64,000 bases of DNA from Synechocystis sp. PCC 6714. Lineage in GTDB: Bacteria; Cyanobacteriota; Cyanobacteriia; Cyanobacteriales; Microcystaceae. Location of the stretch: NCBI RefSeq assembly GCF_000478825.2, contig NZ_CP007542.1:1116001-1180000 (forward strand). The letters are read 5' to 3'. The first letter of the stretch is position 1. Each line of letters begins with the position of its first letter. The notes under the pieces were generated by a model. It saw only the letters and a list, made by a program, of their open reading frames with translations. It searched no databases and had not been told where the DNA came from. Made by a program: the position numbers and the translations under genes. Below are positions 1,873 to 15,425 of the stretch, piece by piece.

Positions 1873-1906
1873 ATTGTTGATGCCACGGGAAGGCGGGAAA
1901 TATTTT

Positions 1907-2503
1907 TTAAGCTTCAATTTGCTCGATAAAGGTCTTGACAAATTGTTCAATCATGCCGGGATGTTTGCCGGTAATTAGATCGCCGTCAATTACCAACTCG
2001 GCGGTCTGATCCCCTTCATAGACCACATCAGCCCCGGCATTTTCCACGTCACAAATAATGTTGTGGGCACAGGTTACTTTTTTGCCCTTAAGCAAATCTG
2101 GGTCGGCACAGAATAACCACAAACTATGGCAAATAGTTCCTAGTTTGAGACCTTTGGTTGCCACTGCTTGACGCAGAAAAACCACCGCTGGTGCCTGATT
2201 TTTTTCACCTTTTTTGACAGTGGCTTGGTACCTTAGGCGGTCCATAGCATAGGCTCCAATGGCAATGATACCTTTATAATCCACGGGATCTATGTCATTA
2301 ACTTCCGTAGTGACAGTAACGTGGTATTCCACCTGATCATTTTCAGGGTTAGAACCAAATTTTAGTTCCGGTTGCCCCCACAGATGGCTAATATATTCCA
2401 CTTCATAACCCTGGGCAGGAAAATATTCATTAAACCAGCGATATTCAGTGCCATCAAAATGTTCTTCAATTAAGACACCAATTTTGCCTTTCACGGTAGT
2501 CAT
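1907..2503 (-). CDS. DJ-1/PfpI (class I glutamine amidotransferase-like) family protein
   Basis: A 198-residue single-domain protein of the DJ-1/ThiJ/PfpI superfamily. The nucleophile elbow is visible as GTICHSLWLF with Cys125 followed by His126, and acidic residues at 13-14 (IEEHFDG) match the Glu that polarises the cysteine in the family. Members act as chaperones, proteases, isocyanide hydratases or glyoxalase III-like enzymes, and the sequence alone does not choose among them. It has no signal peptide, so it should be cytoplasmic. The ATG at 2501-2503 follows a GGAGAAAACAGG ribosome-binding region. It lies between the AhpD-like and AGE genes and is likely cotranscribed with them. Confidence 0.85.
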   Translation of the reverse strand: MTTVKGKIGVLIEEHFDGTEYRWFNEYFPAQGYEVEYISHLWGQPELKFGSNPENDQVEYHVTVTTEVNDIDPVDYKGIIAIGAYAMDRLRYQATVKKGEKNQAPAVVFLRQAVATKGLKLGTICHSLWLFCADPDLLKGKKVTCAHNIICDVENAGADVVYEGDQTAELVIDGDLITGKHPGMIEQFVKTFIEQIEA

Positions 2504-2545
2504 AGTTACCTGTTTTCTCCCTTAAAGTGAGGGTAATTAGTTTTC

Positions 2546-2887
2546 TTAAGCAGATGGCTCAAAGATTTCTTTTAAGGCGGCAAAAGCTCCGGCAGCTTTA
2601 TTAAATCCACCATAAACGCACATAAAGGAGAGCACTTCTTCGATTTCTTCCTTAGTAGCTCCCTGTTTCCGGGCCATATCCACATGGGCTTGGAAAGGGC
2701 CGTTTAGGGTTTGGTTGGCCACATCCACCGCAATGACAATTAGGGCTTTAGTTTTTTGATCAATCAACGGTAAGCCCCAGGCTTCTCCGGCTACCCTGGT
2801 GCAAAAATCACCAAATTGGGGATTAATCCCGCTCAAGCCTGCCTGGAGGTCTTTATCATCGAGCACAGCATTTTTAAACTCACTCAT
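2546..2887 (-). CDS. Carboxymuconolactone decarboxylase (AhpD-like) family protein
   Basis: A 113-residue all-alpha protein with the carboxymuconolactone decarboxylase signature around AHVDMARKQGATKEEIEEVL (His68 onward). The CxxC pair that defines the peroxidase-reductase AhpD is absent: the only cysteines are at about 29 and 90. It therefore resembles PcaC-type or CMD-only members rather than a thiol reductase. Known members open lactone rings or reduce peroxides; the substrate here is unknown. It starts 11 nt after the NTF2-like gene and ends 42 nt before the DJ-1 gene, consistent with one operon. Position and length match slr1853 of PCC 6803 (from memory). Confidence 0.85.
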   Translation of the reverse strand: MSEFKNAVLDDKDLQAGLSGINPQFGDFCTRVAGEAWGLPLIDQKTKALIVIAVDVANQTLNGPFQAHVDMARKQGATKEEIEEVLSFMCVYGGFNKAAGAFAALKEIFEPSA

Positions 2888-2898
2888 GGGGCTAGCTC

Positions 2899-3465
2899 CT
2901 AGGTGGTAATCAGTTTTAGTAAGCTATCGGGAGCAAACACGTCCCGATAAAAAGTGAGTTGTTCTGTTTTTAAGTAACAGCCCCCCCGGTGACCCCGGCG
3001 CACCCAGGTGACATTCCCTTTGGCAATGGTTTCGTGGGTTTCATCGTCCACACATTTCCATTCAAAAAAGGTGTGTTCGCCGTAGAACATAACAATGGGC
3101 CAGACCATGGTTACCCCCGGTTGAGCAATGAGGGCCCACCAATGTTTTTCCCTTTCCTGCTGTTGTTCCAAACCCGAATAGGGGCCATCTTGGCAAAAGT
3201 AGACTAGATCGTCCCGGTACTCCCCGGTCAGAATGTCCCCCCGTCCCTGTCGTAGGGCCTCACAATGGGTAGGCCACCAATCCTTATTTTCCTGTTCAAT
3301 GGTTTCTAGGGTATAGTCAGCGTCAATGGCTGGTAAGGTAGCTTCTTTTTGGGCAACATAGGCAATGCCCTCGGCGATTAGTGTTTCTTTGAGGGCGTCA
3401 GGGACAAGACCGGGCTGGGAATAGTCCGCTTTCAAACCTAAGTAGTAATTTTTTCTTGATGACAT
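2899..3465 (-). CDS. NTF2-like/SnoaL-like fold protein
   Basis: A 188-residue protein with no signal peptide. It is rich in aromatic residues, with a C-terminal sheet (GNVTWVRRGHRGGCYLKTEQ, then LTFYRDVFAP) typical of the cone-shaped NTF2/SnoaL fold, whose members include polyketide cyclases, dehydratases and steroid isomerases. No catalytic assignment can be made from sequence alone. It is the first gene of the leftward operon (slr1852-like), reading away from the 461-nt divergent intergenic region. The ATG is at 3463-3465. The conserved Trp/Tyr-rich interior suggests a hydrophobic small-molecule ligand, which is inference. Confidence 0.65.
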   Translation of the reverse strand: MSSRKNYYLGLKADYSQPGLVPDALKETLIAEGIAYVAQKEATLPAIDADYTLETIEQENKDWWPTHCEALRQGRGDILTGEYRDDLVYFCQDGPYSGLEQQQEREKHWWALIAQPGVTMVWPIVMFYGEHTFFEWKCVDDETHETIAKGNVTWVRRGHRGGCYLKTEQLTFYRDVFAPDSLLKLITT

Positions 3466-3926
3466 AGATGGTTTGCCAAGATAACTAAAAGTAACCAGTT
3501 TAATTTAAGTAAAGCGGGGTTAAGTCCCTATGGGCGAGGGGCTTGAAAAAATTTCACCCATTCAGAACTGGGATACTCCACACCCCTAAGGGAGAATTCA
3601 AGGAGAACTAATTGGTGCAAAGCATAGCACAATCTTTTAACCAAACCACCACTGTAACAAAATGTTACTGAAGGCGAATTAGCCTGGCTTTTTCGACCAT
3701 TATGTCTTCGCATTGGTCAATAATTCTTGACATTTAAATTGTCCTTTGGCGATCGCCAAAATTTATCTATGTAAATATTTGTAAATGTATCAAACAGAAT
3801 TCTAGCAAGGTTTCTATAATGCGTGGTGACTGGCAAAATTTCGTGAGTAAGTTGTCTCTATTTCCTTAGGGAGCTCAGTCAGAATATTGCCTTATATACC
3901 CTGTTGATTTATCGGTACATTTGACC
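3466..3926. promoter_or_regulatory. Divergent intergenic region between the two accessory operons
   Basis: This 461-nt stretch separates the leftward icfG-like cluster from the rightward cupin cluster and holds no convincing gene. It contains a perfect inverted repeat GTAACA-AAA-TGTTAC (3654-3668), a HIP1 site (3748-3757), a TGTAAAT direct repeat around 3770-3790, and a TATAAT at 3815-3820 suitable as the -10 of a rightward promoter. The matching -35 is weak (AAACAG at 3792-3797, 17-nt spacer). If used, the rightward 5' UTR would be about 100 nt. Confidence 0.5.
3654..3668. promoter_or_regulatory. Perfect inverted repeat, candidate operator
   Basis: GTAACA and TGTTAC are exact inverted 6-mers separated by AAA. 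The site lies between two divergent operons, where a dimeric regulator could control both. The outer triplets resemble NtcA half-sites (GTA...TAC) but are 9 nt apart rather than the usual 8, so the identity of the regulator is open. Confidence 0.4.
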
Positions 3927-4370
3927 ATGGAAGTTAATTTTTTCTTATCTGGCAACAGGACTTCCTGGCTAAAAAGAGGGTTTGCCCTGATCTTTACCCT
4001 TCTTGTCCTTGCTAGCGTTTTTTTGTTTCCATCCTCCAGCTGGGCTGATGCCACAAAAGCAGTTGACGATCCAATTGTGGTGGCAGGCAACATCAAAGTA
4101 AGGCCAGATAAAAGAGAAGAATTTATTGCCCTATCTCAAACATTTATTGAGCCTTCTCGGTCAGAGCCCGGCTGTATTTCCTACAGTTTTTACGAGGATG
4201 AAACAGAAGCTAACACCTTTCTATTTTTTGAAGTGTGGCGCAATCGATTAGCTCTAGACGAACATTTTCAGACCCCATACTTCCATGAATTTGTTGAAAA
4301 ATCCCCGGATTTATTGGCCAAGCCAGCGGAAATTACAATTTATAAAATAGCTGAAACTCAAACTCTATAA
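3927..4370 (+). CDS. Exported antibiotic biosynthesis monooxygenase (ABM) domain protein
   Basis: A 147-residue protein. Residues 1-42 form a signal peptide with basic residues at 12-17, a hydrophobic core LIFTLLVLASVFLF and a SSSWADA cleavage region. The rest is one ABM/YgiN-type ferredoxin-like domain: IVVAGNIKVRPDKREEF, then EPGCISYSFYED, FLFFEVWRN and a DEHFQTPYFHEF helix. ABM proteins oxidise quinols or polyketides without cofactor, or degrade haem; a periplasmic version is less common. The ATG at 3927 was preferred to an in-frame TTG six nt upstream. It leads the rightward operon, 26 nt ahead of the first cupin. Confidence 0.85.
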   Translation: MEVNFFLSGNRTSWLKRGFALIFTLLVLASVFLFPSSSWADATKAVDDPIVVAGNIKVRPDKREEFIALSQTFIEPSRSEPGCISYSFYEDETEANTFLFFEVWRNRLALDEHFQTPYFHEFVEKSPDLLAKPAEITIYKIAETQTL

Positions 4371-4396
4371 ATTTTGATCAAGTTCCGATTGAAGTT

Positions 4397-5200
4397 ATGA
4401 AAATTTTGCGTTTACCTTCATTATTTTTTCAGTTATTTCTAGTTCTTGTAATCGCTTTAGGTGGTTTGACCATAGGCGTTCCCGGGGCTCTGGCGATCGC
4501 CACATTGGATAATTTTCCTACCCCCAACATAGATAAAACGGAAAAGATTCTGGGACCGGCGGGGGAGATTTTTGAATTTTCCACCTGTAATGCCGATGGC
4601 ATTGGCTTTACCATTGCGGAAGCCCAGATTCCTCCGGGGGCAGGGCCATTACCCCACATCCATCACTACACCAATGAGTGGTTTTGGACTCCGAAAGGGG
4701 GATTACAATTATTTCAAAGTGTAAAGGAATATCCCGACTTGGAGAATCCCGCCACCGATGAACAGGCCGGAAATGCCACTGTATACACCGTTAACACTGA
4801 ACCCAACCAGATTGTTTATGGGCCCAAATATCGGATCCATGGGTTTGCTAACACCACGATGGAAACCCGTCCTTTGACCTTTATTTGGTTGGAAGATCCC
4901 ATTTCGCCTGCATACGAATTGCATGACGGTGGCATCCGCGAGTATTTCCAAGATGTGGGTATCCCCATTAAAGACTTAAAACATTTGCCCGCTATCACTG
5001 ATCAATCCAAGATAGAATTTGTTAGCCAAGCTCCTCTCTATGGTATCAACCAAAGCTACTACTTTTTTCAGTATGTGGATGGGGTTAGCGGCAAATTACC
5101 AACGCCCCTGCTCAATCTGAACAACGATAAAAAGTTAAATCGCATCATCGAGACAATTAATGCCTATAATCAAGGCGATACTTCGATTCACTGCTTTTAA
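4397..5200 (+). CDS. Periplasmic monocupin (CucA-like)
   Basis: A 267-residue exported cupin. Residues 1-33 are a Sec-type signal (hydrophobic FFQLFLVLVIALGG, ending GALA). The cupin metal site is complete: His87 and His89 in PHIHHYTNEWFW, Glu94 in the same motif, and His148 in YRIHGFAN. Tottey et al. (2008) showed that the PCC 6803 periplasmic cupin CucA binds Cu2+ through such ligands, and I recall that protein (sll1785) and its neighbour sll1784 as the closest relatives. Catalytic activity is unknown; quercetinase-like or oxalate-decarboxylase-like chemistry is possible but unproven. It is paralogous to the gene at 5430, sharing NEWFWTP, HDGG.REYFQ and KYGINQS-type motifs. Confidence 0.85.
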   Translation: MKILRLPSLFFQLFLVLVIALGGLTIGVPGALAIATLDNFPTPNIDKTEKILGPAGEIFEFSTCNADGIGFTIAEAQIPPGAGPLPHIHHYTNEWFWTPKGGLQLFQSVKEYPDLENPATDEQAGNATVYTVNTEPNQIVYGPKYRIHGFANTTMETRPLTFIWLEDPISPAYELHDGGIREYFQDVGIPIKDLKHLPAITDQSKIEFVSQAPLYGINQSYYFFQYVDGVSGKLPTPLLNLNNDKKLNRIIETINAYNQGDTSIHCF

Positions 5201-5230
5201 CTTTGTTGCACAACTTTCTAGGGAAAATTT

Positions 5231-5401
5231 ATGAATAAAGAATTGGGATTTGCCATTCTCGGAGGATGGATTTTAGGAGTAATTTTTGGTTTTTTTAAAT
5301 TACCGTTGCCAGTTCCTCCCTTTGAAGGTTTGGTGGCAGCAGGGGCCTGTCTTTTGGGGCAGGTTACCTACACCTTTATTAAGCAGAAATTTGGTTTTTA
5401 G
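5231..5401 (+). CDS. XapX-domain small membrane protein
   Basis: A 56-residue protein starting at ATG 5231 and ending TAG 5399-5401. It has two hydrophobic segments (LGFAILGGWILGVIFGFF and GLVAAGACLLGQVTYTF) joined by the linker KLPLPVPPFEG. The G-W/L-G-...-PxPPxxxGLxGxxG arrangement is that of XapX (DUF1427) proteins, tiny inner-membrane proteins of unknown function that often sit beside sugar or xanthosine utilisation genes. It lies exactly between the two cupin genes with 28-30 nt gaps, so it should be cotranscribed and may anchor or partner an exported cupin (inference). Confidence 0.75.
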   Translation: MNKELGFAILGGWILGVIFGFFKLPLPVPPFEGLVAAGACLLGQVTYTFIKQKFGF

Positions 5402-5429
5402 TTTTCCGATCTAAACTTAGCTTGGGGCA

Positions 5430-6242
5430 ATGATTATGTTATTAAAAGTTAAACTTTGGGGTATTGGCCTGGTTTTAACTCTAACTTTGGGAGCTATTCT
5501 TTTTCTGCAAAATTTTAGCGTAGCTGCAGAACTAGAGATTCATACTTTTGATGATATTCCTATGCCTAAATTGGCAGATCCTCTGCTGATTTATACCCCC
5601 GCCAATGAAATTTTTGACATTGCTTCCTGTAGTGCTAAGGACATTGGTTTTGCCATTGCCCACGCCCAAATCCCCCCCGGAGGCGGTCCCATGCCCCACA
5701 TTCACTATTTCATTAACGAGTGGTTTTGGACTCCAGAAGGAGGCATCGAACTATTCCACAGCACTAGACAATATCCCAATATGGATGAGTTACCGGTGGT
5801 GGGGGGAGCCGGTCGAGGAGATCTGTACAGTATTCAAAGCGAGCCAAAGCAACTGATTTATTCCCCTAATCACTATATGCATGGTTTTGTTAATCCTACG
5901 GATAAAACATTACCCATTGTTTTTGTTTGGATGCGCAATGAAGTGGCACCGGATTTTCCTTACCACGACGGCGGTATGCGGGAATATTTCCAAGCAGTGG
6001 GTCCCCGCATTACTGACTTGAATAATTTACCGCAATTAACCAATGCCCAAAGGGCCGCTTTTGCAACCGAGGCTCCCAAGTACGGCATTAACCAAAGCTC
6101 CTATTTTATGGAATATGTCAACACCATTAGCAATAAATTACCTGCTAAAATTGCCAGGCTAAAAAATGATAAAGATCTGGAGCGAATGGTAGAAGTAATT
6201 GAAGCCTTTAATCGTGGTGATAAATCGGTAAGCTGCTCATGA
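5430..6242 (+). CDS. Second periplasmic monocupin (CucA-like paralogue)
   Basis: A 270-residue paralogue of the cupin at 4397, with its own Sec signal (residues 1-33, ending SVAA). Metal ligands are conserved: His90, His92 and Glu97 in PHIHYFINEWFWTP, and His151 in YMHGFVNP. Similarity extends over the full length, including YHDGGMREYFQAVG and the C-terminal YGINQSSYFMEYV and VEAFNRGDKS segments, so the pair arose by tandem duplication. Its TGA overlaps the ATG of the next gene in ATGA (6239-6242), implying translational coupling to a cytoplasmic sugar epimerase-like enzyme. Substrate and metal are not determined; Cu, Mn or Fe are all used by the family. Confidence 0.85.
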   Translation: MIMLLKVKLWGIGLVLTLTLGAILFLQNFSVAAELEIHTFDDIPMPKLADPLLIYTPANEIFDIASCSAKDIGFAIAHAQIPPGGGPMPHIHYFINEWFWTPEGGIELFHSTRQYPNMDELPVVGGAGRGDLYSIQSEPKQLIYSPNHYMHGFVNPTDKTLPIVFVWMRNEVAPDFPYHDGGMREYFQAVGPRITDLNNLPQLTNAQRAAFATEAPKYGINQSSYFMEYVNTISNKLPAKIARLKNDKDLERMVEVIEAFNRGDKSVSCS

Positions 6243-7102
6243 TTTCTGCCCCAAAAATTAAATTTGGAGTTCATACTTTCATCTGGAAAAAAGAATTTCT
6301 TGGTGACGAAGAATATGTTTTCCAAGATGCCAAAAAGTGGGGATTTAATGGGGTAGAAATTGCTACCCACTATTTTGACCAAATCGATCCCCTCCAACTT
6401 AAAAGCTATGGCCAAAAGTATGGTTTAGAACTAACTTTTTGCACCAGTTTACCCCAGGGCTTATCCCTAACCGCCGAGGACAAAACCTGCTGGCGGGATT
6501 CCATTGCTTATCTACAAAGGGCAATTAAATTCTGTCAGCAATGCGGCATTACCCAATTGTCTGGCCCGTTTCCCCATCCCGTGGGCTATCTCAGTGGAGA
6601 ACCTCTCCAAAAACAGGAAAATATTCGCATGCAGGAAGCCTTTAGGTTGGTAGCGGAAACCCTGGTCAAAACTGATCTAAAACTGGCGATCGAACCCCTA
6701 AATCGTTTTCAAGGTTATGCCATCAACACGGTGGCTCAGGGTCTGGAATTACTCGACGCAGTGGATTGTCCCCAACTGGGTCTGTTACTGGATTTATTCC
6801 ATATGAATATTGAAGAAAAGGATGTGCTTGAGGCTTTTCGACAGGCAAGAGGCAGTTGTTTTCATATCCATGCCTGCGCTAAAGATCGAGGGACCCCTGG
6901 CAGTGATTCCTTTGCCTGGAATGATTGGTTTCAAGTTTTGCAAGAAATTAATTATTCTGGTTGGGTGACCATCGAAAGTTTTAATTTTGAGGACAAAGAA
7001 TTAGCTTCCGGCGCTCGTCTGTGGCGCCCTGTGGCTCCTAGTAACAAAGTTCTAGCTCAAGATGGACTGAAATTTTTGCGGCAAACCTATCAAACTAACT
7101 AA
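6239..7102 (+). CDS. Sugar epimerase, D-tagatose/D-psicose 3-epimerase-like TIM barrel
   Basis: A 287-residue xylose-isomerase-like TIM barrel without a signal peptide. The four metal ligands of D-tagatose 3-epimerase can be read: Glu152 (AIEPLNR), Asp185 (LLLDLFHMN), His211 (FHIHACAKDRGTPG) and Glu246 (TIESF). The substrate-contact residues His188 and Arg217 are also present, and the numbering coincides with that recalled for the Pseudomonas cichorii enzyme. It should interconvert ketohexoses or related sugars at C3, or act on a keto-inositol-type substrate. It overlaps the second cupin by 4 nt and precedes an alpha/beta hydrolase by 20 nt. Family assignment is strong; the exact substrate is not. 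Confidence 0.85.
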   Translation: MISAPKIKFGVHTFIWKKEFLGDEEYVFQDAKKWGFNGVEIATHYFDQIDPLQLKSYGQKYGLELTFCTSLPQGLSLTAEDKTCWRDSIAYLQRAIKFCQQCGITQLSGPFPHPVGYLSGEPLQKQENIRMQEAFRLVAETLVKTDLKLAIEPLNRFQGYAINTVAQGLELLDAVDCPQLGLLLDLFHMNIEEKDVLEAFRQARGSCFHIHACAKDRGTPGSDSFAWNDWFQVLQEINYSGWVTIESFNFEDKELASGARLWRPVAPSNKVLAQDGLKFLRQTYQTN

Positions 7103-7122
7103 ATTTACTAAGTAAATAAACT

Positions 7123-8010
7123 ATGAATAGCCCCTTTATTCCCACCACTCTGCCATCTGGATTTGAACACACCTACACCAACGTTGACGGGGTAAATCTC
7201 CATGCCATTGAAGGGGGAAACGGGCAACCATTACTTTTACTTGGTGGCTGGCCCCAAACCTGTTACGTCTGGCGGTTATTGCTGGAACAATTGGGAGAAC
7301 ATTTCCGGGTAATAGCTCTAGATATGCGGGGTCAGGGGGATTCAGATATTCCCGACGGCCCCTATGACTGCGGCACAGCGGCTAAGGAAATTAAAGCTTT
7401 TTTAGAACAAAAAGAAATTAATTCTTTTTACTTAGTAGGCCACGATGTGGGAGCTTGGGTGGCATTTACAGTGCTAAAGTTTTTTCCGGATGCGGTGCTC
7501 GGGACAGGGTTAATTGATGCGGCTATTCCTGGTTTAGTGAGTAGCGATTTCTTTGCCGTTGTTAATGCGCCAAAAGTTTGGCAGTTTTATTTCCACATGG
7601 TGCCAGATTTAGCAAGTAGTTTGGTAACAGGAAAAGAAAATGAATATCTCAGTTGGTACTTCACCAATAAATCTAAACGAAAACAAAACCTTACACCAGA
7701 AGTGATTGACTATTATGCCCGTTATTACAGTCGTCCAGGGGCTATGAAAGCCGGTTTTCTTTGGTACTCTGCTTTGGAAGAAACAACAAAAGCAAATACC
7801 CCGACGGTGGATACCCATTTTAACCAACCAATTTTCGCCATGGGGGGAGAATTTGCCACTAAATCGTTAATTTATAATGGTTTATCTCCCTATTGTGATG
7901 ACATTACCGGTTATGTGATTGAGCAGTGTGGTCATTACATTCCCGAGGAAGCACCAGAGGAAATTTTCCAGGCAATTTTAACTACTTTTACAACCGCGAA
8001 GGAGTCCTGA
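7123..8010 (+). CDS. Alpha/beta hydrolase, epoxide hydrolase/dehalogenase type
   Basis: A 295-residue cytoplasmic alpha/beta hydrolase. The nucleophile elbow is GHDVGA with Asp108 in place of Ser, as in epoxide hydrolases and haloalkane or fluoroacetate dehalogenases. The oxyanion segment is GGWPQ (41-45), the catalytic His is His271 in CGHYIPEE, and an acid near Glu243 (GGEFA) completes the triad. A cap domain occupies about 135-225. It lies 20 nt after the epimerase and 3 nt before the deacetylase, so the three enzymes are probably made together. The physiological substrate is unknown; an epoxide, halide or strained ring in a secondary metabolite is possible (inference). Confidence 0.85.
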   Translation: MNSPFIPTTLPSGFEHTYTNVDGVNLHAIEGGNGQPLLLLGGWPQTCYVWRLLLEQLGEHFRVIALDMRGQGDSDIPDGPYDCGTAAKEIKAFLEQKEINSFYLVGHDVGAWVAFTVLKFFPDAVLGTGLIDAAIPGLVSSDFFAVVNAPKVWQFYFHMVPDLASSLVTGKENEYLSWYFTNKSKRKQNLTPEVIDYYARYYSRPGAMKAGFLWYSALEETTKANTPTVDTHFNQPIFAMGGEFATKSLIYNGLSPYCDDITGYVIEQCGHYIPEEAPEEIFQAILTTFTTAKES

Positions 8011-8013
8011 ACT

Positions 8014-9021
8014 ATGCAAAGAAGAGAGCTGTTTAAATATGGTCTGGCCACCGGAGCTGGGGCGATCGCCAGTTATGGTTTCATGGGCAATAAACCATTG
8101 TTGGCGCAACAGTCTAATGCTGGTGGTGGCAAGTTTTGGCCCGATAATATTCGTCTGCCCATTTCCTTGTCTTTAATGTTTGAAACGGGCAGTCAACCGG
8201 CGAAAGGTGCCCCCACTCCCTTTGGTAATTTCACCCCGCCGCCGGATTACTACGATATGCCCACCATTACCTGGTATCGGTATGGCTATACGGAAGGGGT
8301 TCCCCGTATTCTTGATTTACTGGATAAGTACAAAATTAAGATTACGTCCCATATGTCCGGGCGCACGGTGGAAATGTACCCAGACCGGGCCAGGGAAATT
8401 GTCGAGCGGGGCCATGAAGCGGCGGCCCACGGTTGGAATTGGGACAATGAATTCAACATGACTGCCGCCCAGGAAAAAGATTTTATTCAACGCAATGTGG
8501 ATATGATCCTAAAAGTTACAGGGCAACGGGCCGTTGGGTATAACGCACCCGGTTTACGGGGTTCTGTGAATGTTCTTTCTGTACTGAATGAACTAGGTTT
8601 TGTCTACCACATTGACGATGTTAGCCGGGATGAGCCTTTCATTGTTAACCTCAATAACGGCGGATCCATTATGGTGGTGCCCTACGCTGTTTATTTAAAT
8701 GACATTCGTGCCTATGAGGCAAGGTTCTTTTCGTCTGAACAGTATTTAGCAGAGTTAAAAAACTCTTTCGATCGCCTTTATGAAGAGGCCGCTTACCGGC
8801 GAAGGATGATGGCAGTAACCATGCACGATCGCCTACAACGGCCGGAACACGTCTATGTATTTGAGGATTTCCTGAAGTATGTAATGTCGAAACCAGGGGT
8901 AGAATTTATGAAAAAAATTGACATTGCCAACTTTGCTTTAAATGACAAAAATACCATTCGGGAAGATATTCAAAATGTTTATCCCAATGTGCCTAATTTT
9001 GTCCCCGGCGCTACCAGTTAA
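8014..9021 (+). CDS. Tat-exported polysaccharide deacetylase-family protein, PuuE-like
   Basis: A 335-residue protein beginning MQRRELFKYG, a twin-arginine signal, with a hydrophobic stretch to about residue 32. The remainder is a NodB-type deacetylase fold: SLMFETGS (50-60), GHEAAAHGWNWD (133-144), YNAPGLRGS and a C-terminal MHDRLQRP. The classic metal-binding TFDDG is replaced by FETGS, and the HxxxH region reads HEAAAH. This pattern is closer to PuuE-type (metal-independent) allantoinases than to chitin deacetylases. It probably hydrolyses an amide of a small molecule in the periplasm (inference). Only 3 nt separate it from the hydrolase. Confidence 0.8.
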   Translation: MQRRELFKYGLATGAGAIASYGFMGNKPLLAQQSNAGGGKFWPDNIRLPISLSLMFETGSQPAKGAPTPFGNFTPPPDYYDMPTITWYRYGYTEGVPRILDLLDKYKIKITSHMSGRTVEMYPDRAREIVERGHEAAAHGWNWDNEFNMTAAQEKDFIQRNVDMILKVTGQRAVGYNAPGLRGSVNVLSVLNELGFVYHIDDVSRDEPFIVNLNNGGSIMVVPYAVYLNDIRAYEARFFSSEQYLAELKNSFDRLYEEAAYRRRMMAVTMHDRLQRPEHVYVFEDFLKYVMSKPGVEFMKKIDIANFALNDKNTIREDIQNVYPNVPNFVPGATS

Positions 9022-9081
9022 CTAACTGATAAATATGTCGGCAAGTTTATTGTCAAAAAGAAATTAACAAGGAATTTAACC

Positions 9082-9609
9082 ATGCTCAAATCCACTTTTG
9101 CTCCGTTGTTAACCGCCATTTCTTTAACTGGTTTAACCCTACCGGCCTTGGCTCTAGAAGAAACCCCCGTTTTATCGTCGGACATTGCCATTAAAGCAGC
9201 CCAGTCGGCGATCGCCGCTTGTCGTCAGGAAGGTTATGGAGTTACCGCTACGGTGGTCAACCCCGAAGGCAATGTCTTGGTGGTCATTCGTAGTGATGGA
9301 GCTTTGGTACATACAGTACAAACTTCATTTAACAAAGCCTATTCTGCTGTTACTTTAGCCACCAACCATAATCTGGACAGTACTTCCGGCATTCTGGCAT
9401 CAATGCAGGCTAAGGGAGCCCAGGGTGTGGGGACATGGCCTATGCCCGCCGATCCCCTCACGGGCATTACTCTTTTTCCCGGCGGAGTACGCTTACTTTC
9501 CCAGGGCAAAGTGGTAGGGGGTTTGGGGGTTTCCGGCACTCCCGTTGGTATGACGGATGAAGGTTGTGCCATCAAAGGTCGGGATGCCATATTACCGGAT
9601 TTGCGTTAA
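9082..9609 (+). CDS. Exported GlcG/HbpS-family protein
   Basis: A 175-residue protein. Residues 1-24 are a Sec signal (ending LPALALEE). The rest is one GlcG/HbpS (DUF336) domain with the typical AAQSAIAACRQEGY helix, TATVVNPEGNVLVVIRSDGA strand pair and a GVSGTPVG C-terminal hairpin. Known relatives include the extracellular haem-binding protein HbpS of Streptomyces and GlcG of glycolate operons. The ligand here is unknown. It closes the rightward operon, 60 nt after the deacetylase, and stands 16 nt tail to tail from the propeller gene at 9626. A paralogue is encoded at 11626. Confidence 0.8.
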   Translation: MLKSTFAPLLTAISLTGLTLPALALEETPVLSSDIAIKAAQSAIAACRQEGYGVTATVVNPEGNVLVVIRSDGALVHTVQTSFNKAYSAVTLATNHNLDSTSGILASMQAKGAQGVGTWPMPADPLTGITLFPGGVRLLSQGKVVGGLGVSGTPVGMTDEGCAIKGRDAILPDLR

Positions 9610-9625
9610 CTTTTGCAGTTAGTGA

Positions 9626-10630
9626 CTATTGTAATTCTAGCAAAATAATGGTGCCGTGGTAAGCGGCGATCGCCAAGTTTTTGCCGTTGGGATGGAAAGA
9701 AACACTGCCCAATCTTTCTAAATTTGGGTCATATTGGTCCAATAATTGTCCCTGCAAATTCCATACTCTTAAAACGCCATCATCGGAAACGGTGGCAATT
9801 AAATTATTTTGGTTAATGGCAACTCCGGTGACCCAACCGTCATCGAGGACATCAATTTTTAATATTTCTTTGCCATCAAGATTAAATACCCGGGCCGTAC
9901 CATCGAACCCGCCAGAAACTAATAATTGCCCGTCCTTACTAAAACGGACACTGTTAAGGCGGCCTTGATTAGTTTCAATGATTTTTACCACTTCCCCCGC
10001 CGGATTTAGTAAAGTGATTTCACCAATATCTTGGGTGACCGCAATTAAACTTGCCTGGGCATTAAAGTCCATATTACGACTGACCCCAGGGCGAGTTACC
10101 GAAAACAAGGGTTTATTCGTGTTTGACCAGCCTTGAATGGTACCATCATCGGAACTGGTCACCATCCCCATATCTTGATTAAAAAAAGCAACATCGGTAA
10201 CAGCGGAAGTGTGACCTCTGATTTCCCCCAACACATTACCCTGTATATCCCAAATGCGGGCAACACCGTTGTAACCGGCGGTAATAATAGCTTTCCCATC
10301 ACTACTAAATGTACCATTAAAAATCATAGCCACAGGGCTACCAGCAAATTCTTGCACCAATTGTCCGTCCGCGGTCCAAAGTTTGCCTAAACCATCGGTG
10401 GCCGTTGAAAGTAGATAATTGCCATCTTGACTGTGGTGAATTTGGATAATTGCTTCCCCTTTTAACTCATGGCCTAGGTAACTTTTAATTACCTGCAATT
10501 TAACCCGGGAGTCAACCTTGCTTTCCCTGACTAAAAAACTATCAGTCGGGGGATTTTTAGCTGAGACATCGCCGCCGGTAAAACTAATCGTTAAACCCAG
10601 CAAAAAAACGAACAAAAATTTAAGTTTCAT
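9626..10630 (-). CDS. Exported WD40-type beta-propeller protein (first of three)
   Basis: From ATG 10630 the protein is 334 residues: a signal peptide (MKLKFLFVFLLGLTISFTGG), then repeated blades of about 40 residues such as DGKAIITAGYNGVARIWDIQ and GQLLVSGGFDGTARVFNLDG. A GTG at 10648, overlapping the TGA of the upstream gene (GTGA), is an alternative start. WD40 propellers are binding scaffolds; no enzymatic motif is visible. It is a close paralogue of the next gene upstream (10645-11625) and is translationally linked to it. Export to the periplasm is unusual for WD40 proteins and groups it with the other exported products of this cluster. Confidence 0.8.
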   Translation of the reverse strand: MKLKFLFVFLLGLTISFTGGDVSAKNPPTDSFLVRESKVDSRVKLQVIKSYLGHELKGEAIIQIHHSQDGNYLLSTATDGLGKLWTADGQLVQEFAGSPVAMIFNGTFSSDGKAIITAGYNGVARIWDIQGNVLGEIRGHTSAVTDVAFFNQDMGMVTSSDDGTIQGWSNTNKPLFSVTRPGVSRNMDFNAQASLIAVTQDIGEITLLNPAGEVVKIIETNQGRLNSVRFSKDGQLLVSGGFDGTARVFNLDGKEILKIDVLDDGWVTGVAINQNNLIATVSDDGVLRVWNLQGQLLDQYDPNLERLGSVSFHPNGKNLAIAAYHGTIILLELQ

Positions 10631-10644
10631 ATTGCTTTTACTAC

Positions 10645-11625
10645 TCACTTAGATAGATGAAAAATCCACACTTGCCCTTGACTGCCGGTGGCCGCCAAAT
10701 ATTTACCATCGGGGGAAAAACTTAAACTAGTTAATCTGCCGGAACCCAACGGCAATTCATGCAGTAACTGGCCATCTTTGCCCCAAAGTCTGATAGCGCC
10801 GTCATCACTGGCGGTGGCAAGCCATTCCCCTTGGGGGTAAAACTGGGCACTGTTCACCCAACCAGTCGGCACAACTTTATATTCAGTGATTAATTCCCCA
10901 GCTAAATTCCATAACTTGGCAGAACCATTGGTGCCTGCGGTTAACAATTGCTGACCATCGGGGCTGAAATTAACATTATTAATTCGTCCCTGACCCGTGG
11001 CAATTTCCCGCTCAATTCCCCCCTGGGGATTAATCAAATATAAGGAACCACTATCGGAAACGCTGGCAATTAAAATACCCCGGGGATGGTAAGCCAAATT
11101 TCGGGCTGTGCCGGGGTTTAAAACCCCCACTAATTTTTCCCCTTGCCGAGTAAAAACTTGAGTTTGGCCGTCATCGGAACAGGTGACAATGGTTTGGCCA
11201 TCGGGGCTAAATAGAGCATCGGCCACTGCCGCTCGATGGGGGCGTTGTTCCTCTATTAGTTCCCCCTGCAAATTCCACAGACGAATAGTGCCATCATAGC
11301 CGGTGGTAATTAACGTTTGGCCATCGGGGGAAAAGCGAGCATTGAACATAGGAGGTTTTTGCCCCCGCAGTTGCTTTAACATTTCGCCTTCTTTAGTCCA
11401 CAAAGTCCCCACACCATCGGCGGAAGCAGTGAGCAAAAACTTGCCGTCAGGGCTAAAGTAAATCCTATTGAGGGCGACCTCAGCCCCGGTAAATTGTTTT
11501 TGTAAGTGGAGTTTGATGGTCGATTGCTGGTTGATAGAAGCCGCCTTGGGGACCTCTGCCTCCACTATTTCTACCCCCATAAGTGGCAAACTTAGGGCTA
11601 GTAAAACTGCTGGAAAAGTTCTCAT
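10645..11625 (-). CDS. Exported WD40-type beta-propeller protein (second of three)
   Basis: A 326-residue propeller with an N-terminal signal (MRTFPAVLLALSLPLMGVEI) and about seven blades carrying FSPDGQTLITTGYDGTIRLWNL-like units; blades end in LWTK, LWNL or LWGK. It begins immediately after the TAG of the GlcG-like gene (TAG then ATG at 11623-11625) and overlaps the following propeller gene by 4 nt, so GlcG and two propellers form one leftward operon. The role is presumably protein or ligand binding in the periplasm or at a membrane. Blade sequences are much more regular than in the third propeller at 14370. Confidence 0.8.
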   Translation of the reverse strand: MRTFPAVLLALSLPLMGVEIVEAEVPKAASINQQSTIKLHLQKQFTGAEVALNRIYFSPDGKFLLTASADGVGTLWTKEGEMLKQLRGQKPPMFNARFSPDGQTLITTGYDGTIRLWNLQGELIEEQRPHRAAVADALFSPDGQTIVTCSDDGQTQVFTRQGEKLVGVLNPGTARNLAYHPRGILIASVSDSGSLYLINPQGGIEREIATGQGRINNVNFSPDGQQLLTAGTNGSAKLWNLAGELITEYKVVPTGWVNSAQFYPQGEWLATASDDGAIRLWGKDGQLLHELPLGSGRLTSLSFSPDGKYLAATGSQGQVWIFHLSK

Positions 11626-12171
11626 CTATGGCACCAAACGGGATTTAATTTTTTCGATGCCTTTGATACCACAAATCTGGTCTAAATTGCCATTGGGGGA
11701 ACCGGAAACCCCGATCGCCGCCACCAATTCGTCCCCCACTTTAATGGCCAGGCCGCCGGTGCTAAAACTCAGGCCAGTGACTGGGTCGGGGGCCAGGGGT
11801 AAGGAGCCTAGGGGCAGAGGAGTTGGGGTCATTTTTTTGGCGATCGCCTCGGTGGAATCCTCCCCAGTAATGGGGCCTAGGGTAATTAGGGTAAAAGCCT
11901 TGTACAAACTATATTCTATGGTGTGGGGGGTAGCGCCATCACCCCGGACTACGGCCTGCACTAAACCTTCTTGATTAACCACTGTGGCAGTGACATTGTA
12001 GCCATCCCGTTGACAACTATTCACCGCTTCCATGGCCGCCTCCACCGCCAGGGCCACTGGTAATTGATAGTAGGTTTTCAAGGCCAGGGCCCCGGAAGAA
12101 AAAGTCAAAGATAGGCCAAGGGAAATCCCCAGTACCAGACAAGGTCGCAAAATTATTTCTCTCAATTTCAC
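11626..12171 (-). CDS. Exported GlcG/HbpS-family protein (paralogue)
   Basis: The chosen start is GTG 12169-12171 (MKLREIILRP), preceded six nt upstream by GGGAG; an upstream TTG at 12195 has no comparable site. The 181-residue product has a signal peptide (LVLGISLGLSLTFSSGALA) and one GlcG/HbpS domain: AAMEAVNSCQRDGYNVTATV, VRGDGATPHTIEYSLYKA, APDPVTGLSF and AIGVSGSPNG. It shares VTATVVN.EG and ADP/APDP..TG motifs with the copy at 9082. A TACAAT at 12201-12206 on this strand could be the -10 of the operon promoter, though the -35 is weak. It may bind haem, a cobalamin-like ligand or a small acid; unknown. Confidence 0.8.
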   Translation of the reverse strand: MKLREIILRPCLVLGISLGLSLTFSSGALALKTYYQLPVALAVEAAMEAVNSCQRDGYNVTATVVNQEGLVQAVVRGDGATPHTIEYSLYKAFTLITLGPITGEDSTEAIAKKMTPTPLPLGSLPLAPDPVTGLSFSTGGLAIKVGDELVAAIGVSGSPNGNLDQICGIKGIEKIKSRLVP

Positions 12172-12415
12172 AGGACACTCCCTTTGGTGAAACAATCCTA
12201 ATTGTACTCACACCTAAGGTTTTTTTTAATAAATCTACTGCCCCCGCCCTAGGGTAGAATCCAATGGTAATTGCATTGCCAAAGGCCTTAATATTTAGTT
12301 TTCCCAGGACTTGATTTTATTTACGTTACTTAACTTTACATAAAGTACTAAGTTGGGGAAATTCCAGCAGGGGCAAGCACTTAATATTTCCGTTGATATT
12401 TTTCCAGGTATGCCC

Positions 12416-13156
12416 ATGGCGTTTGATATTGCCGACAAAATAATTCTTGTTACTGGTGCCAATCGGGGCATAGGCAAAGTGCTAGTGGAGTCTTTTTTGG
12501 ACCACGGGGCCGCAAAAGTTTACGCCGCCGTCAGAAAGCTGGCCAGTGCAGAACCCCTAGTGGAGCAATATGGCGATAAAGTAGTGCCCACCTTGATTGA
12601 TCTAGCGGAGCCACAGTCTATTACCGCCGCCGCCCAAATCGCAATGGATGTGGAAGTGGTGGTCAATAATGCTGGGGTACAGAAAGTTGCAAATCCCCTA
12701 GCTGAAGAAGCGATCGCCTACCTGAAATTTGAAATGGAAACTAATGTGTATGGGTTGATTGCCATGGCCCAAGCCTTTGCCCCCATACTTCAAGCCAATG
12801 GGGGAGGAGCTTTTGTGCAACTTAACTCGGTGGTGTCCCTGAAGTCATTGCCCAATATTGCCACCTACTCCGCTTCCAAGGCCGCTGCCTATTCCATTAC
12901 CCAGGCATTACAAGAACTTCTCCGTCGTCAAAATACTCTTGTTTTAAGTGTCCACCCTGGCCCCATCGCCACCGAAATGACCCATGCTTCTGGAAGAGCT
13001 GACATTGCCGAATCTCCCACCCTAGTGGCGGAAGCTATTATTTCTGGACTCCAATCTGGTGAGTTCCATGTTTTTCCCAACGACACAATGGCGAAAGAAA
13101 TGGGTAATGCCTATCGAAGCTTTGCCAAAAATGTAGTCGAAGTCAGCTTTGACTGA
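12416..13156 (+). CDS. Short-chain dehydrogenase/reductase
   Basis: A 246-residue classical SDR. The nucleotide site is VTGANRGIGK, followed by NNAG and the catalytic Ser (LNSVVSL) and Tyr-x3-Lys (YSASK). ATG 12416 was chosen because AGG at 12406-12408 is spaced 7 nt from it; ATG 12410 is too close to that site and a TTG at 12353 has no support. It is a cytoplasmic NAD(P)-dependent alcohol/ketone oxidoreductase of unknown substrate. It starts the second rightward set, 47 nt ahead of the TRAP binding protein, which may mean the imported ligand is oxidised or reduced here (inference). Confidence 0.85.
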   Translation: MAFDIADKIILVTGANRGIGKVLVESFLDHGAAKVYAAVRKLASAEPLVEQYGDKVVPTLIDLAEPQSITAAAQIAMDVEVVVNNAGVQKVANPLAEEAIAYLKFEMETNVYGLIAMAQAFAPILQANGGGAFVQLNSVVSLKSLPNIATYSASKAAAYSITQALQELLRRQNTLVLSVHPGPIATEMTHASGRADIAESPTLVAEAIISGLQSGEFHVFPNDTMAKEMGNAYRSFAKNVVEVSFD

Positions 13157-13202
13157 AAATTGGACTTTATAATTCACAGCTAAATAACGGGAAATGTCAG
13201 TC

Positions 13203-14312
13203 ATGAAACATTCACGGAGAAATTTCCTCGCTTTGGCAGGGGCCAGTTCCCTATTGGCGATCGCCGCCCCAAAGTTATGGGCCCAGGGTATACCCCAGGA
13301 AATTTTAAACAAAATTTTGCCCCTGCCCGGCCAATACGGTGAATATTACGGCCAGGCAAAAATTAGGGCCTTTCACCTCCACAATCAACCGGACACTAGC
13401 CCATTACATAAAGCTTTAGAAGAACTCTGGTTAGATGTATTTAAACAAACTGAGGGGGAACTATTTGTCACCCCTATCCCCCAAGATGCTTCCATTCCCG
13501 CCGGGGATCCCCAGGCTGTGCAATTTATTACCGGGGGACGTTTTGAAATTGTTAGCGTTGCCGGCCCCATTATCGATAAAGTAGCCCCCGATATTATCGG
13601 CGTTCAAAATTTTCCTCTCATTTATCAATCGTCCCAGGATGCTTTTGAGATTATTAATCAGCCCCTTTTTGCAGAGACTCTTAATGGTTCAGTAGCCCAA
13701 TATAATCTAACCTATTTGCCCAATGGTACTTTCGACAACGGCATGAGAGTGGTCACCTCCATTGCCAAGCACCCCATTAATAAACTGGAAGATTTTCAAA
13801 ATCTCAAAATCAGAATTCCCCCTTCCAATGACATGGAAATGACCATGAAAGCCCTGGGAGCCATTCCCGAGAAAATTACTATGAATCAAGTTTTTCGTTC
13901 TCTAGAAAATGGTACTGTCGAGGCCCAGGAGAATCCCCTTTCAGTGGCCCTAGGATTTGAACTTTATAAAGTAACTAAATATTTAAACATGACTAACCAT
14001 GCTTGGTCAGGATATAACACTTTCTTTAATACTAGCTTTTGGAATAGTCTTTCCCCTGAAGTCCAGAATGTTATCAGGGAACTTCTGCCCATTTACCAAG
14101 CAAAGCAAATAAAAGCCCAGGAAGAATATAATCAACAGGCTTATCAAAAATTAACTAGTAATTTAGCTATGGTGGTAACGGAACCCAACCTATCCCAAGC
14201 CCATAGTCAATTGATTAAGGTTTATCAGTCGATGTATGGCAAGTTAAATCCCCAGGCTCAATCTCTGATCAGAAATAAGTTAGAAGAAAAAACTGGCATC
14301 AAGTTTACTTAG
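13203..14312 (+). CDS. TRAP-type solute-binding protein (DctP family), orphan
   Basis: A 369-residue Tat-exported protein starting MKHSRRNFLALAG, with GGGAA 8 nt before this ATG; ATG 13194 is an alternative. The DctP fold is evident from FHLHNQPDTSPLHKALEELW, GRFEIVSVAGPII, GMRVVTSIAKHPI and KIRIPPSNDMEMTMKALGAI, then a NPLSVALGFELYKVTKYL helix. These proteins bind organic acids, sugar acids or keto acids for DctQ/DctM permeases. No DctQ or DctM gene is visible in this window, so it either works with a distant permease or acts as a sensor or chaperone. Tat export suggests folding, perhaps with a cofactor, before export. Confidence 0.85.
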   Translation: MKHSRRNFLALAGASSLLAIAAPKLWAQGIPQEILNKILPLPGQYGEYYGQAKIRAFHLHNQPDTSPLHKALEELWLDVFKQTEGELFVTPIPQDASIPAGDPQAVQFITGGRFEIVSVAGPIIDKVAPDIIGVQNFPLIYQSSQDAFEIINQPLFAETLNGSVAQYNLTYLPNGTFDNGMRVVTSIAKHPINKLEDFQNLKIRIPPSNDMEMTMKALGAIPEKITMNQVFRSLENGTVEAQENPLSVALGFELYKVTKYLNMTNHAWSGYNTFFNTSFWNSLSPEVQNVIRELLPIYQAKQIKAQEEYNQQAYQKLTSNLAMVVTEPNLSQAHSQLIKVYQSMYGKLNPQAQSLIRNKLEEKTGIKFT

Positions 14313-14369
14313 GCTAAAATCGACTTTGTAGTTAAGTTTTGTCAATTAGTTTTCAATAATGCTAGCAAT

Positions 14370-15425
14370 ATGAAGTTTATACTTGGTTTTGCCAATCCTT
14401 GGCTCTGTTCCACCTATTGTAAAAACATCAAACTTAAACGTTCGTCACTGACCATATTACTTTTGGTTAGCCTGTGGCTAATTCCTCAACAGGAACAGGT
14501 CTGGGCCCAGGAAAAACCCTTTGTGGTCAAAAAGATCGACCTAACTCATTATGGAACACCGGCTTCCATTGCCCAGGATCGGGAATCTCAACAATTGGCC
14601 ATTGCTTTCTATAACTGCAATTTAGTTTTCCTTGATGGTAATTTGAACCAAGACCAGAAAAATAGTTTATTTCTTAAAGATTGTAAACGTTTTTTTCGGG
14701 CTAGATATGGGGAGCTTGGTGCGATCCCCTTTCTTATTTCTTCCATTTACACTGGAAGCAGTGTTTTGCATAACTCCCAGCAGAGTTTCGATATTCCCCT
14801 CCACAAAGCGGCGGTGACAGATTCCCTCATTGTCCAGGATTATCTATTATCATCTTCCGATGATGGTTCAGTAACCATATCAAGGTTAATCAGCCTTTCT
14901 CCCCCCAAAGTTAATACCTTAAAGCTTTACCAATCCATTGGTGTTGCAAGGAATTTGGCCTTTGTCCACACCCCAGATCCAGATGTTGGTAAAGTTGCCG
15001 TTAGTTACGATACTGGTGAAATTGTTATTTTTGATATTGACCGCAACACCGGTCTTAATCCAGTTGAGCCCACCATATTTAGAAATATCAATAGTCGAAT
15101 TAACACTTTTAAGTTCACCGAAAATGGCTCCAAATTATTAATTGGCTACTTCACCGGGGAACTGGTGCAGTTGGATGTCGATAATAAGACTAGTAAAACC
15201 CTTTTAAAAGTTGATTCCTGGCTTAATACGTTGGATATTAACTCCCAAGATTTAGTGGCGATCGGTGACGATAGTGGTTTCGTCAAAATTATTTCTTTGT
15301 CCACTGGAAAGCTAATCAAGGAAGAAAAAATCTCCCAAACTGGCATTACTGCCCTGATTTTTATGGATGATCAAACCATACTCGCCGCCGATGCCGCTGG
15401 CATGGTTTACCTAGGAAAATTGTAA
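14370..15425 (+). CDS. Exported beta-propeller protein (third of three, divergent)
   Basis: A 351-residue protein with a hydrophobic export segment at about 28-45 (LTILLLVSLWLIP, ending VWAQ). It has weaker propeller repeats (SSDDGSVTISRL, GEIVIFDI, GELVQLDV, DSGFVKIISLSTGKLI). It lacks the regular LWxL blade ends of the other two but shows the same overall plan and size, including the ARNLA/INTFKF positions. It follows the TRAP binding protein by 57 nt on the same strand. No catalytic motif was seen. The pairing of propeller and small-ligand-binding protein repeats the arrangement at 9626-12171. Confidence 0.65.
   Translation: MKFILGFANPWLCSTYCKNIKLKRSSLTILLLVSLWLIPQQEQVWAQEKPFVVKKIDLTHYGTPASIAQDRESQQLAIAFYNCNLVFLDGNLNQDQKNSLFLKDCKRFFRARYGELGAIPFLISSIYTGSSVLHNSQQSFDIPLHKAAVTDSLIVQDYLLSSSDDGSVTISRLISLSPPKVNTLKLYQSIGVARNLAFVHTPDPDVGKVAVSYDTGEIVIFDIDRNTGLNPVEPTIFRNINSRINTFKFTENGSKLLIGYFTGELVQLDVDNKTSKTLLKVDSWLNTLDINSQDLVAIGDDSGFVKIISLSTGKLIKEEKISQTGITALIFMDDQTILAADAAGMVYLGKL

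Follow-up and report, generated by a model that had tools for sequence, protein, structure and literature searches.

The 64,000-nucleotide stretch of DNA analysed here (the window; C1:1116001-1180000 of the 3.74-Mb genome of Synechocystis sp. PCC 6714) begins with 18 genes at 52-15425 that appear to belong together with the icfG locus adjoining them. We tentatively favour, at a little under even confidence, the view that they form one co-evolving and co-regulated island, built on an IcfG partner-switch locus, which would process surface carbohydrate according to carbon status. Such processing under IcfG and CyAbrB1 is favoured because export signals, sugar-type enzymes, carbon-side regulators and an exopolysaccharide phenotype point toward it. 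The original prediction had described a cluster of exported proteins starting at 3927, in which a compound would be captured and modified outside the cytoplasm and then imported. Its open reading frames (ORFs), families and gene order were as claimed, with 14 genes in three tight transcription units at 3921-15425 (intra-unit gaps of -4 to 60 bp), but the start has to be moved, as a divergent unit at 52-3465 and the icfG locus belong with the cluster.

The recurrence of these genes in other cyanobacteria suggests that they evolve as a group. Two exported CucA-like cupins (cupin A, 4397..5200, and cupin B, 5430..6242, plus strand) and a cytoplasmic alpha/beta hydrolase (7123..8010, plus strand) were compared with 292 genomes of the phylum from 115 genera, strong matches being those with E below 1e-30 for the cupin and at most 1e-60 for the hydrolase. 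CucA-like cupin matches occur in 12 of these genomes and are strong in six, from three genera: the present genome (G000) and two others of its genus (G003 and G004), two genomes of g55 in the same order (G184 and G223), and one related only at the level of class (G304). Strong hydrolase matches fall in the identical six. Counted by genus, cupin (3/115) and hydrolase (3/115) coincide (p 4e-6, a value that ignores relatedness beyond genus), and all three cupin genera carry U188, a gene of the divergent unit (p 0.0017). A further genome, G227, carries three CucA-like cupin genes in tandem and, after them, an exported ORF that looks oxidoreductase-like and was assigned without an HMM scan (L061 8941-13413); it has no other strong member and was excluded from the strong set.

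Linkage is likewise retained in distant lineages. The 18 window genes are all found in G003, while 14 are retained in G004 and 12 within 18 kb in Pseudanabaena sp. SR411 (G416), with altered order; G304 holds 15 of the 18 families within 40 kb, reordered and in some cases with low identity. The Pseudanabaena run, in an 18-kb stretch at one contig end, comprises RsbW, STAS, GlgX, STAS, AGE, ABM, cupin A, XapX, cupin B, epimerase, hydrolase, TRAP protein, propeller 3, carboxymuconolactone decarboxylase (CMD), U188 and DJ-1, with a partial IcfG-type match (residues 307-448) at the very contig end. This locus and one in Synechocystis salina LEGE 00031 were the two returned by a scan of genome contigs with the cupin alignment, which is no census because divergent members such as G304 were missed. 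Flanking control genes (argG, adh, tsaD and psaF) were present in only 1 of 27 loci rows, that of G223, where the cassette lies beside psaF and tsaD. One could instead suppose that unrelated genes gathered near a mobile icfG locus and share no pathway, and the reshuffled order, the lineage-dependent content and the occurrence of the core on plasmids are consistent with this. We regard such hitch-hiking as improbable, as Synechocystis, g55 and Pseudanabaena all share the run of cupin A, XapX, epimerase and hydrolase, and strong cupin and hydrolase presence coincides exactly across the 292 genomes. The earlier proposal that the genes act together is thus supported by co-occurrence and linkage in distant lineages.

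Published work on Synechocystis PCC 6803 adds evidence of shared regulation. The region is orthologous to the icfG and sll1783 operons of that strain (slr1852-1862; sll1783-1785, sll1304-1307 and slr1406-1410), which a passage of PMC8670252 describes as three operons jointly down-regulated in salt, again in keeping with joint action; sll1783-1785 are called consistently co-regulated in an excerpt of PMC2924297. By its title, Hishida 2024 reports that two divergent operons 'related to carbon metabolism', icfG and sll1783, are induced when CyAbrB1 is knocked down, and a review passage cites this study for carbohydrate metabolism. The set was therefore less novel than first supposed, both operons having already been called carbon-metabolism-related in that title. 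For the core-plus-cassette pattern in distant cyanobacteria set out below, no description was found, judged by titles and passages, in the searchable literature, outside which most subscription journals lie. Deletion of the monooxygenase gene sll1783 leads to flocculation and more exopolysaccharide, according to a passage of the review PMC7690835, in which Miranda 2017 is cited. The counterpart in the window, by gene order and family, is an ABM-fold monooxygenase with a hydrophobic N-terminus, probably exported (3921..4370, plus strand; PF03992, 80.2 bits).

Alternatively, the genes might serve cell-wall or peptidoglycan remodelling and be jointly switched down in salt and slow growth, as would suit the cell-wall reorganisation guessed at in the same passage of PMC8670252. 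The deacetylase family represented in the island includes peptidoglycan deacetylases, and a portion of PMC12329169 identifies Slr1861, encoded in the icfG operon, as an anti-SigC factor and IcfG as the phosphatase of Slr1856, and states that excess RNAP-SigC lowers wall-synthesis genes. We nevertheless find wall remodelling quite improbable, given that the deacetylase is structurally closest to PuuE allantoinases and not to peptidoglycan enzymes, and that the close relatives G001 and G002 have no cupins, hydrolase or deacetylase and yet must make walls. The icfG cluster has been tied to carbon, particularly glucose, metabolism since 1994, as stated in a passage of PMC12329169 that cites Beuf 1994.

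In the present genome, the components of the partner switch lie directly upstream of the island. Beyond the 5' edge of the window (L064) are genes for a STAS protein, for GlgX (identified by way of the homologue in G304), for another STAS protein, for an IcfG-type SpoIIE phosphatase that carries a HAMP domain, and for an RsbW-like kinase. The phosphatase, of SpoIIE type, the HATPase kinase and both STAS proteins share one locus, as do their counterparts in the known IcfG/Rsb switch (IcfG, the Slr1861 kinase, Slr1856 and Slr1859). The difference from that system is that the switch is here a frequent neighbour of a metabolic island, whose genes we propose it may control. L064 also holds, at 6951-12653 beside the icfG locus, genes for a dCache-like protein, a solute-binding protein, an auxin-efflux-type carrier and a Lar_N protein, a group that is also found together in G387.

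Between this locus and the periplasmic genes lies the divergent unit, read from the minus strand. It consists of U188 (2899..3465), a CMD family protein (2546..2887; PF02627, 61.6 bits), a DJ-1/PfpI family protein (1907..2503; PF01965, 59.9 bits) and an AGE-type sugar epimerase family protein (52..1872; PF07221 on its longer part). A 455-bp gap (3466..3920) separates the U188-side and ABM-side units and should contain their divergent promoters; aligned in three species, it showed scattered conserved blocks and no nameable motif. The AGE gene is interrupted by an in-frame TAG at 808-810 (minus strand) in the window and is a single 607-residue frame in G003 and G004. A tblastn search with the AGE protein of L033 aligned to the window at 92% over 606 residues with one stop, which may mean that the strain has truly lost the gene or that the sequence contains an error. 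The AGE model (pLDDT 81) has a predicted glucose/cellobiose 2-epimerase fold with an extra N-terminal beta region (best match 8h1l, E 8e-13). In G223 the AGE gene lies in two parts about 2.3 kb apart (C1:1236289-1240388), which looks like an insertion.

U188 matched no Pfam or NCBIfam family. AlphaFold2 prediction from 22 sequences gave a best model with pLDDT 79 (51-79 over five models), and Foldseek matched this model best to the SnoaL-like structure 7e85 (E 7e-6), so that a SnoaL/NTF2-like fold is predicted. This prediction is among the points that fit the main rival, in which ABM, cupin, SnoaL/U188, EthD, epoxide hydrolase and CMD proteins would act on an aromatic or epoxide compound in small-molecule tailoring or detoxification (quinone, polyphenol or polyketide-like) and the sugar enzymes would be incidental. 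Related loci repeatedly contain ABM, EthD, SnoaL_2, VOC and CMD families, in some cases within a single polypeptide; Cif-like epoxide hydrolases are the group closest to the hydrolase; and a Gloeothece locus has a halogenase and HpaB within about 10 kb. We consider tailoring unlikely, as no polyketide or aromatic pathway was seen among the recognised Synechocystis and Pseudanabaena genes (the scan did not extend to every unlabelled ORF), the phenotype on record is one of exopolysaccharide according to the passage of PMC7690835, and AGE, 3-epimerase and GlgX are sugar enzymes.

Export signals are concentrated in the island. Signal-like N-termini occur in 9/13 ORFs of at least 100 residues inside 3921-15425 and in 8/42 in the rest of the window (Fisher p = 0.0014), as counted by a crude hydropathy rule and not by SignalP. 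These nine Sec- or Tat-like hydrophobic N-termini, picked out by script, together with the twin-arginine start (RRELF) of the deacetylase, give ten island products with an export signal by sequence. The dense export cluster of the original prediction is therefore upheld, with its count of at least eight corrected to ten, and the idea of modification outside the cytoplasm fits both these signals and the exopolysaccharide phenotype of the monooxygenase mutant (PMC7690835, in the passage cited above).

Cupin B matches PDB 2XL7 (Sll1785, the CucA of PCC 6803) with 544 bits over 238 residues (33-270) and is its orthologue, which places the organism very close to PCC 6803; cupin A (274 bits) is a paralogue. 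The CucA-type 3-His/1-Glu site, H90, H92, E97 and H151, which we take to be the metal ligands, is invariant in 11 aligned sequences. Judged by these matches, the window cupins are of the CucA type and may likewise bind copper. CucA is a copper-binding periplasmic cupin for Cu(II) in PMC4192464, the passages of which present it as a copper-loading model and give neither an enzyme activity nor a pathway. Copper binding by CucA, together with the two HbpS-like proteins and an 'iron uptake porin' family protein in both the G304 island and the Gloeothece U188 locus, would also suit periplasmic metal or haem handling with the other genes riding along. We hold this to be very improbable, since no metal transporter or sensor and no haem gene is among the recognised Synechocystis and Pseudanabaena island genes (again, unlabelled ORFs were not all scanned) and the carbon-side genes are the more constant neighbours.

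The enzyme between cupin B and the hydrolase is a cytoplasmic ketose (tagatose/psicose) 3-epimerase-like protein (6239..7102, plus strand; PF01261). It is a TIM barrel with PDB D-tagatose 3-epimerase matches of about 106 bits, and it shares with D-tagatose and D-psicose 3-epimerases the Glu, Asp, His and Glu residues, presumably a metal site, at IEPLNRF, LLDLFHMN, HIH and IESF. Because it scores 151.4 bits against an NCBIfam equivalog cut-off of 300, it was not filed as a psicose 3-epimerase. A 3-keto-sugar route, suggested by a 59-bit similarity to 3-keto-glucoside 4-epimerase, was rejected as too thin. The hydrolase (PDB 7jqz, 205 bits) has the Cif-like catalytic pairs at GHDVGAW, FHMVPDL, FLWYSA and GHYIPEE in the alignment with 7jqz, where we assume the nucleophile Asp, the ring-opening His and Tyr and the base His to lie. 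Its reading frame in G004 is reported with one TAA.

The Tat-exported deacetylase (8014..9021, plus strand; PF01522) is a PuuE/CE4-like amidohydrolase or deacetylase. Its nearest PDB relative is the PuuE allantoinase 3cl6 (110 bits); the window protein differs in its Tat export and in falling far below the PuuE cut-off (TIGR03212, 129.1 against 424.6 bits). It also has SLMFETG at the place aligned to TFDD, which we take to be metal motif 1 of CE4 (NodB-type) deacetylases. By family and neighbours, it would correspond to Sll1306. That protein is labelled a putative chitooligosaccharide deacetylase in a passage of PMC4877387. A proteobacterial origin for the cluster was considered through this gene, as 47-50% identical proteins are encoded on Azotobacter, Leisingera and Roseateles plasmids. 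The genes around them encode ABC transporters with L-2-hydroxyglutarate oxidase or, for the Azotobacter plasmid, a SnoaL-type 'ester cyclase'; Leisingera also has a NIPSNAP protein and, at a distance of several kb, an SDR and a small cupin. The annotation of these neighbourhoods includes neither HbpS nor propeller, and neither epimerase nor epoxide hydrolase, and they therefore do not explain the origin of the cluster. Likewise, the sole plasmid match for the cupin (Pantoea, 34.5%) adjoins FAD monooxygenases and not this gene set.

The remaining cassette products are mostly exported. Between the cupins lies a 56-residue membrane peptide (5231..5401, plus strand), which the original prediction named XapX. 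A membrane peptide it is, with 98% identity in G003 and 78% in Pseudanabaena, but at 19.5 bits it falls below the TIGR03510 cut-off of 27.8 and is better called XapX-like. Two proteins score as HbpS/GlcG-like in PF03928 against a cut-off of 25 bits (HbpS-1, 9082..9609, plus strand, 80 bits; HbpS-2, 11626..12195, minus strand, 74.7 bits). Of three predicted propellers, two are clear WD40 proteins (WD-1, 9626..10648, PF00400 at 114 bits, and WD-2, 10645..11625, 155 bits, both on the minus strand), whereas the third, a degenerate beta-propeller (WD-3, 14370..15425, plus strand), has weak propeller-model matches. Propeller 3 lies directly 3' of the TRAP gene in G003, G004, G184 and Pseudanabaena as well; in G004 a 57-residue remnant also follows the SDR (L059 15902-16072), the longer copy following the TRAP gene, and marks a rearrangement. 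The SDR oxidoreductase (12413..13156, plus strand; NF006120, 396 bits against a cut-off of 274) has homologues above 80% only in G003 and G004 among the fetched loci and at 25-27% elsewhere; no phylum-wide SDR search was made. A giant ORF of 3007 residues lies between HbpS-2 and the SDR in G003 (L122 828-9851) and is missing from that position in the window.

The core to which these periplasmic genes are tied is itself more widespread. U188 occurs in 25/386 genomes and 18/142 genera. The stretch fetched around U188 also contains AGE in 20 of the 25, and in the remaining five AGE is at another place in the genome; GlgX is in the stretch for 19 (the present genome through L064), with just 46% identity in two cases. 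For 12 of the 24 other genomes the stretch includes an IcfG-type phosphatase or RsbW-type kinase, and G003 can be added through the neighbouring L065; several fetched stretches end inside the icfG-type locus. Among the loci compared, only the six cupin genomes and Pseudanabaena have rows with homologues of cupin A, XapX, epimerase and hydrolase. Other U188 stretches bear EthD-SnoaL fusions, VOC, DUF4432, SDR and lactonase-type propellers, or a multicopper oxidase with DUF4114. Even within the genus, G002 has the core (no CMD in the stretch) with an EthD/SnoaL cassette where G000 has the cupin cassette, and G001 has neither U188 nor AGE. Since the U188 core bears other cassettes elsewhere, the periplasmic set appears to be a replaceable module attached to a core linked to IcfG.

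The core is also found on plasmids. In the plasmid collection, U188 is present in five records, all cyanobacterial, and neighbourhoods were viewed for four (the fifth is Nostoc sp. C052). The plasmid of Nostoc sp. NIES-3756 follows the same plan, with STAS, kinase, PP2C phosphatase, CMD, U188, aldose 1-epimerase, glucose dehydrogenase, three NHL-repeat proteins, DJ-1, AGE, STAS and GlgX. That of Gloeocapsopsis dulcis has GlgX, AGE, U188, CMD and DJ-1; a Gloeothece plasmid has U188 with CMD, EthD and a multicopper oxidase; and on the Nostoc edaphicum plasmid U188 stands beside glucose dehydrogenases, a gluconolactonase and a glucosidase. The sugar-type neighbours of U188 on the two Nostoc plasmids and that of Gloeocapsopsis dulcis speak for the carbohydrate reading. 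L101 (8883-13596), L102 and L108 encode chains of about 500-1050 residues that join U188 and CMD to EthD, VOC and SnoaL domains (the domain scan was of L101), and such natural fusions hint at joint action. Proteins of 949-1155 residues adjoin CMD or U188 in L105 (5840-9307), L106 (5677-9090) and L103 (166-3015); the large protein of L106, which was scanned, contains a cupin, two ABM stretches and DUF5648.

It is thus possible, although we are doubtful of the statement as a whole, that an IcfG-linked core (U188, CMD, DJ-1, AGE, STAS, GlgX, RsbW and IcfG) takes swapped extracytoplasmic cassettes, even within one genus. The cassette of Synechocystis and Pseudanabaena would then represent a periplasmic pathway, so far undescribed, in which carbohydrate is oxidised, deacylated and epimerised, its TRAP-type protein would be a permease-less sensor or carrier, and the island would be an output of the IcfG carbon/glucose switch.

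The import step of the original prediction fared less well. The Tat-exported TRAP solute-binding protein (13194..14312, plus strand; SRRNFL) is a DctP subunit (TIGR00787, 285.9 against 175 bits), and no DctM permease gene is present in the island; the sole one in this genome is about 680 kb away. Binding protein genes are carried by G000, G003, G004, G184 and Pseudanabaena. A DctM gene is present in the first four, and no match was found in Pseudanabaena, whose genome completeness was not shown, or in G304. Import by TRAP is the weakest step of the proposed mechanism.

The surface-carbohydrate reading can be laid out as a sequence of steps, whose order we infer. The copper cupins, the ABM protein and the Tat-exported PuuE-like enzyme would act on a surface saccharide, or on a piece of one, by oxidation, isomerisation or deacylation, while the HbpS proteins and propellers might bind or hold substrates. 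Part of the product would enter the cytoplasm, where the ketose-3-epimerase, the epoxide-hydrolase-like enzyme, the SDR and the AGE-type epimerase could feed it into sugar metabolism beside GlgX, with IcfG and CyAbrB1 setting the timing. The metabolic and exported genes that travel with the icfG cluster offer a testable output for it. If the reading is true, surface carbohydrate would change with carbon supply and CucA would gain a pathway.

Several observations weigh against this reading. No result identifies a substrate, and the mixture of ABM, EthD, SnoaL and cupin proteins would suit small-molecule tailoring as well. The deletion phenotype rests on one review passage, in which the gene is printed as slr1783 (PMC7690835), and the AGE gene of this very genome carries an internal stop. 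Scattering of the genes in close relatives had been named beforehand as grounds for abandoning the idea, and the outcome is mixed: they are linked in G003 and G004, but G001 and G002 have no match for cupins, hydrolase or deacetylase, and G184 and G223 hold them at several loci. In G184, eight cassette genes form one run, with U188 and CMD about 2 Mb off and AGE about 62 kb off; the G223 cassette is likewise split from U188 and AGE. U188 stands without the rest of the core nearby on the Nostoc edaphicum plasmid and in G412 and G308. The epimerase (28%) and ABM (28%) of G304 may be family-level matches and not orthologues. The G304 stretch lacks SDR, TRAP and WD-3, and that of Pseudanabaena lacks deacetylase, HbpS, WD-1/2 and SDR; the pathway is therefore not a fixed set.

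The surroundings of the cassette recur in one further case. In G223 (L060 7008-12041) the cassette adjoins psaF and tsaD, two genes that the window also has, about 3-4 kb away from where the cluster ends, and these surroundings are possibly a recurrent insertion area.

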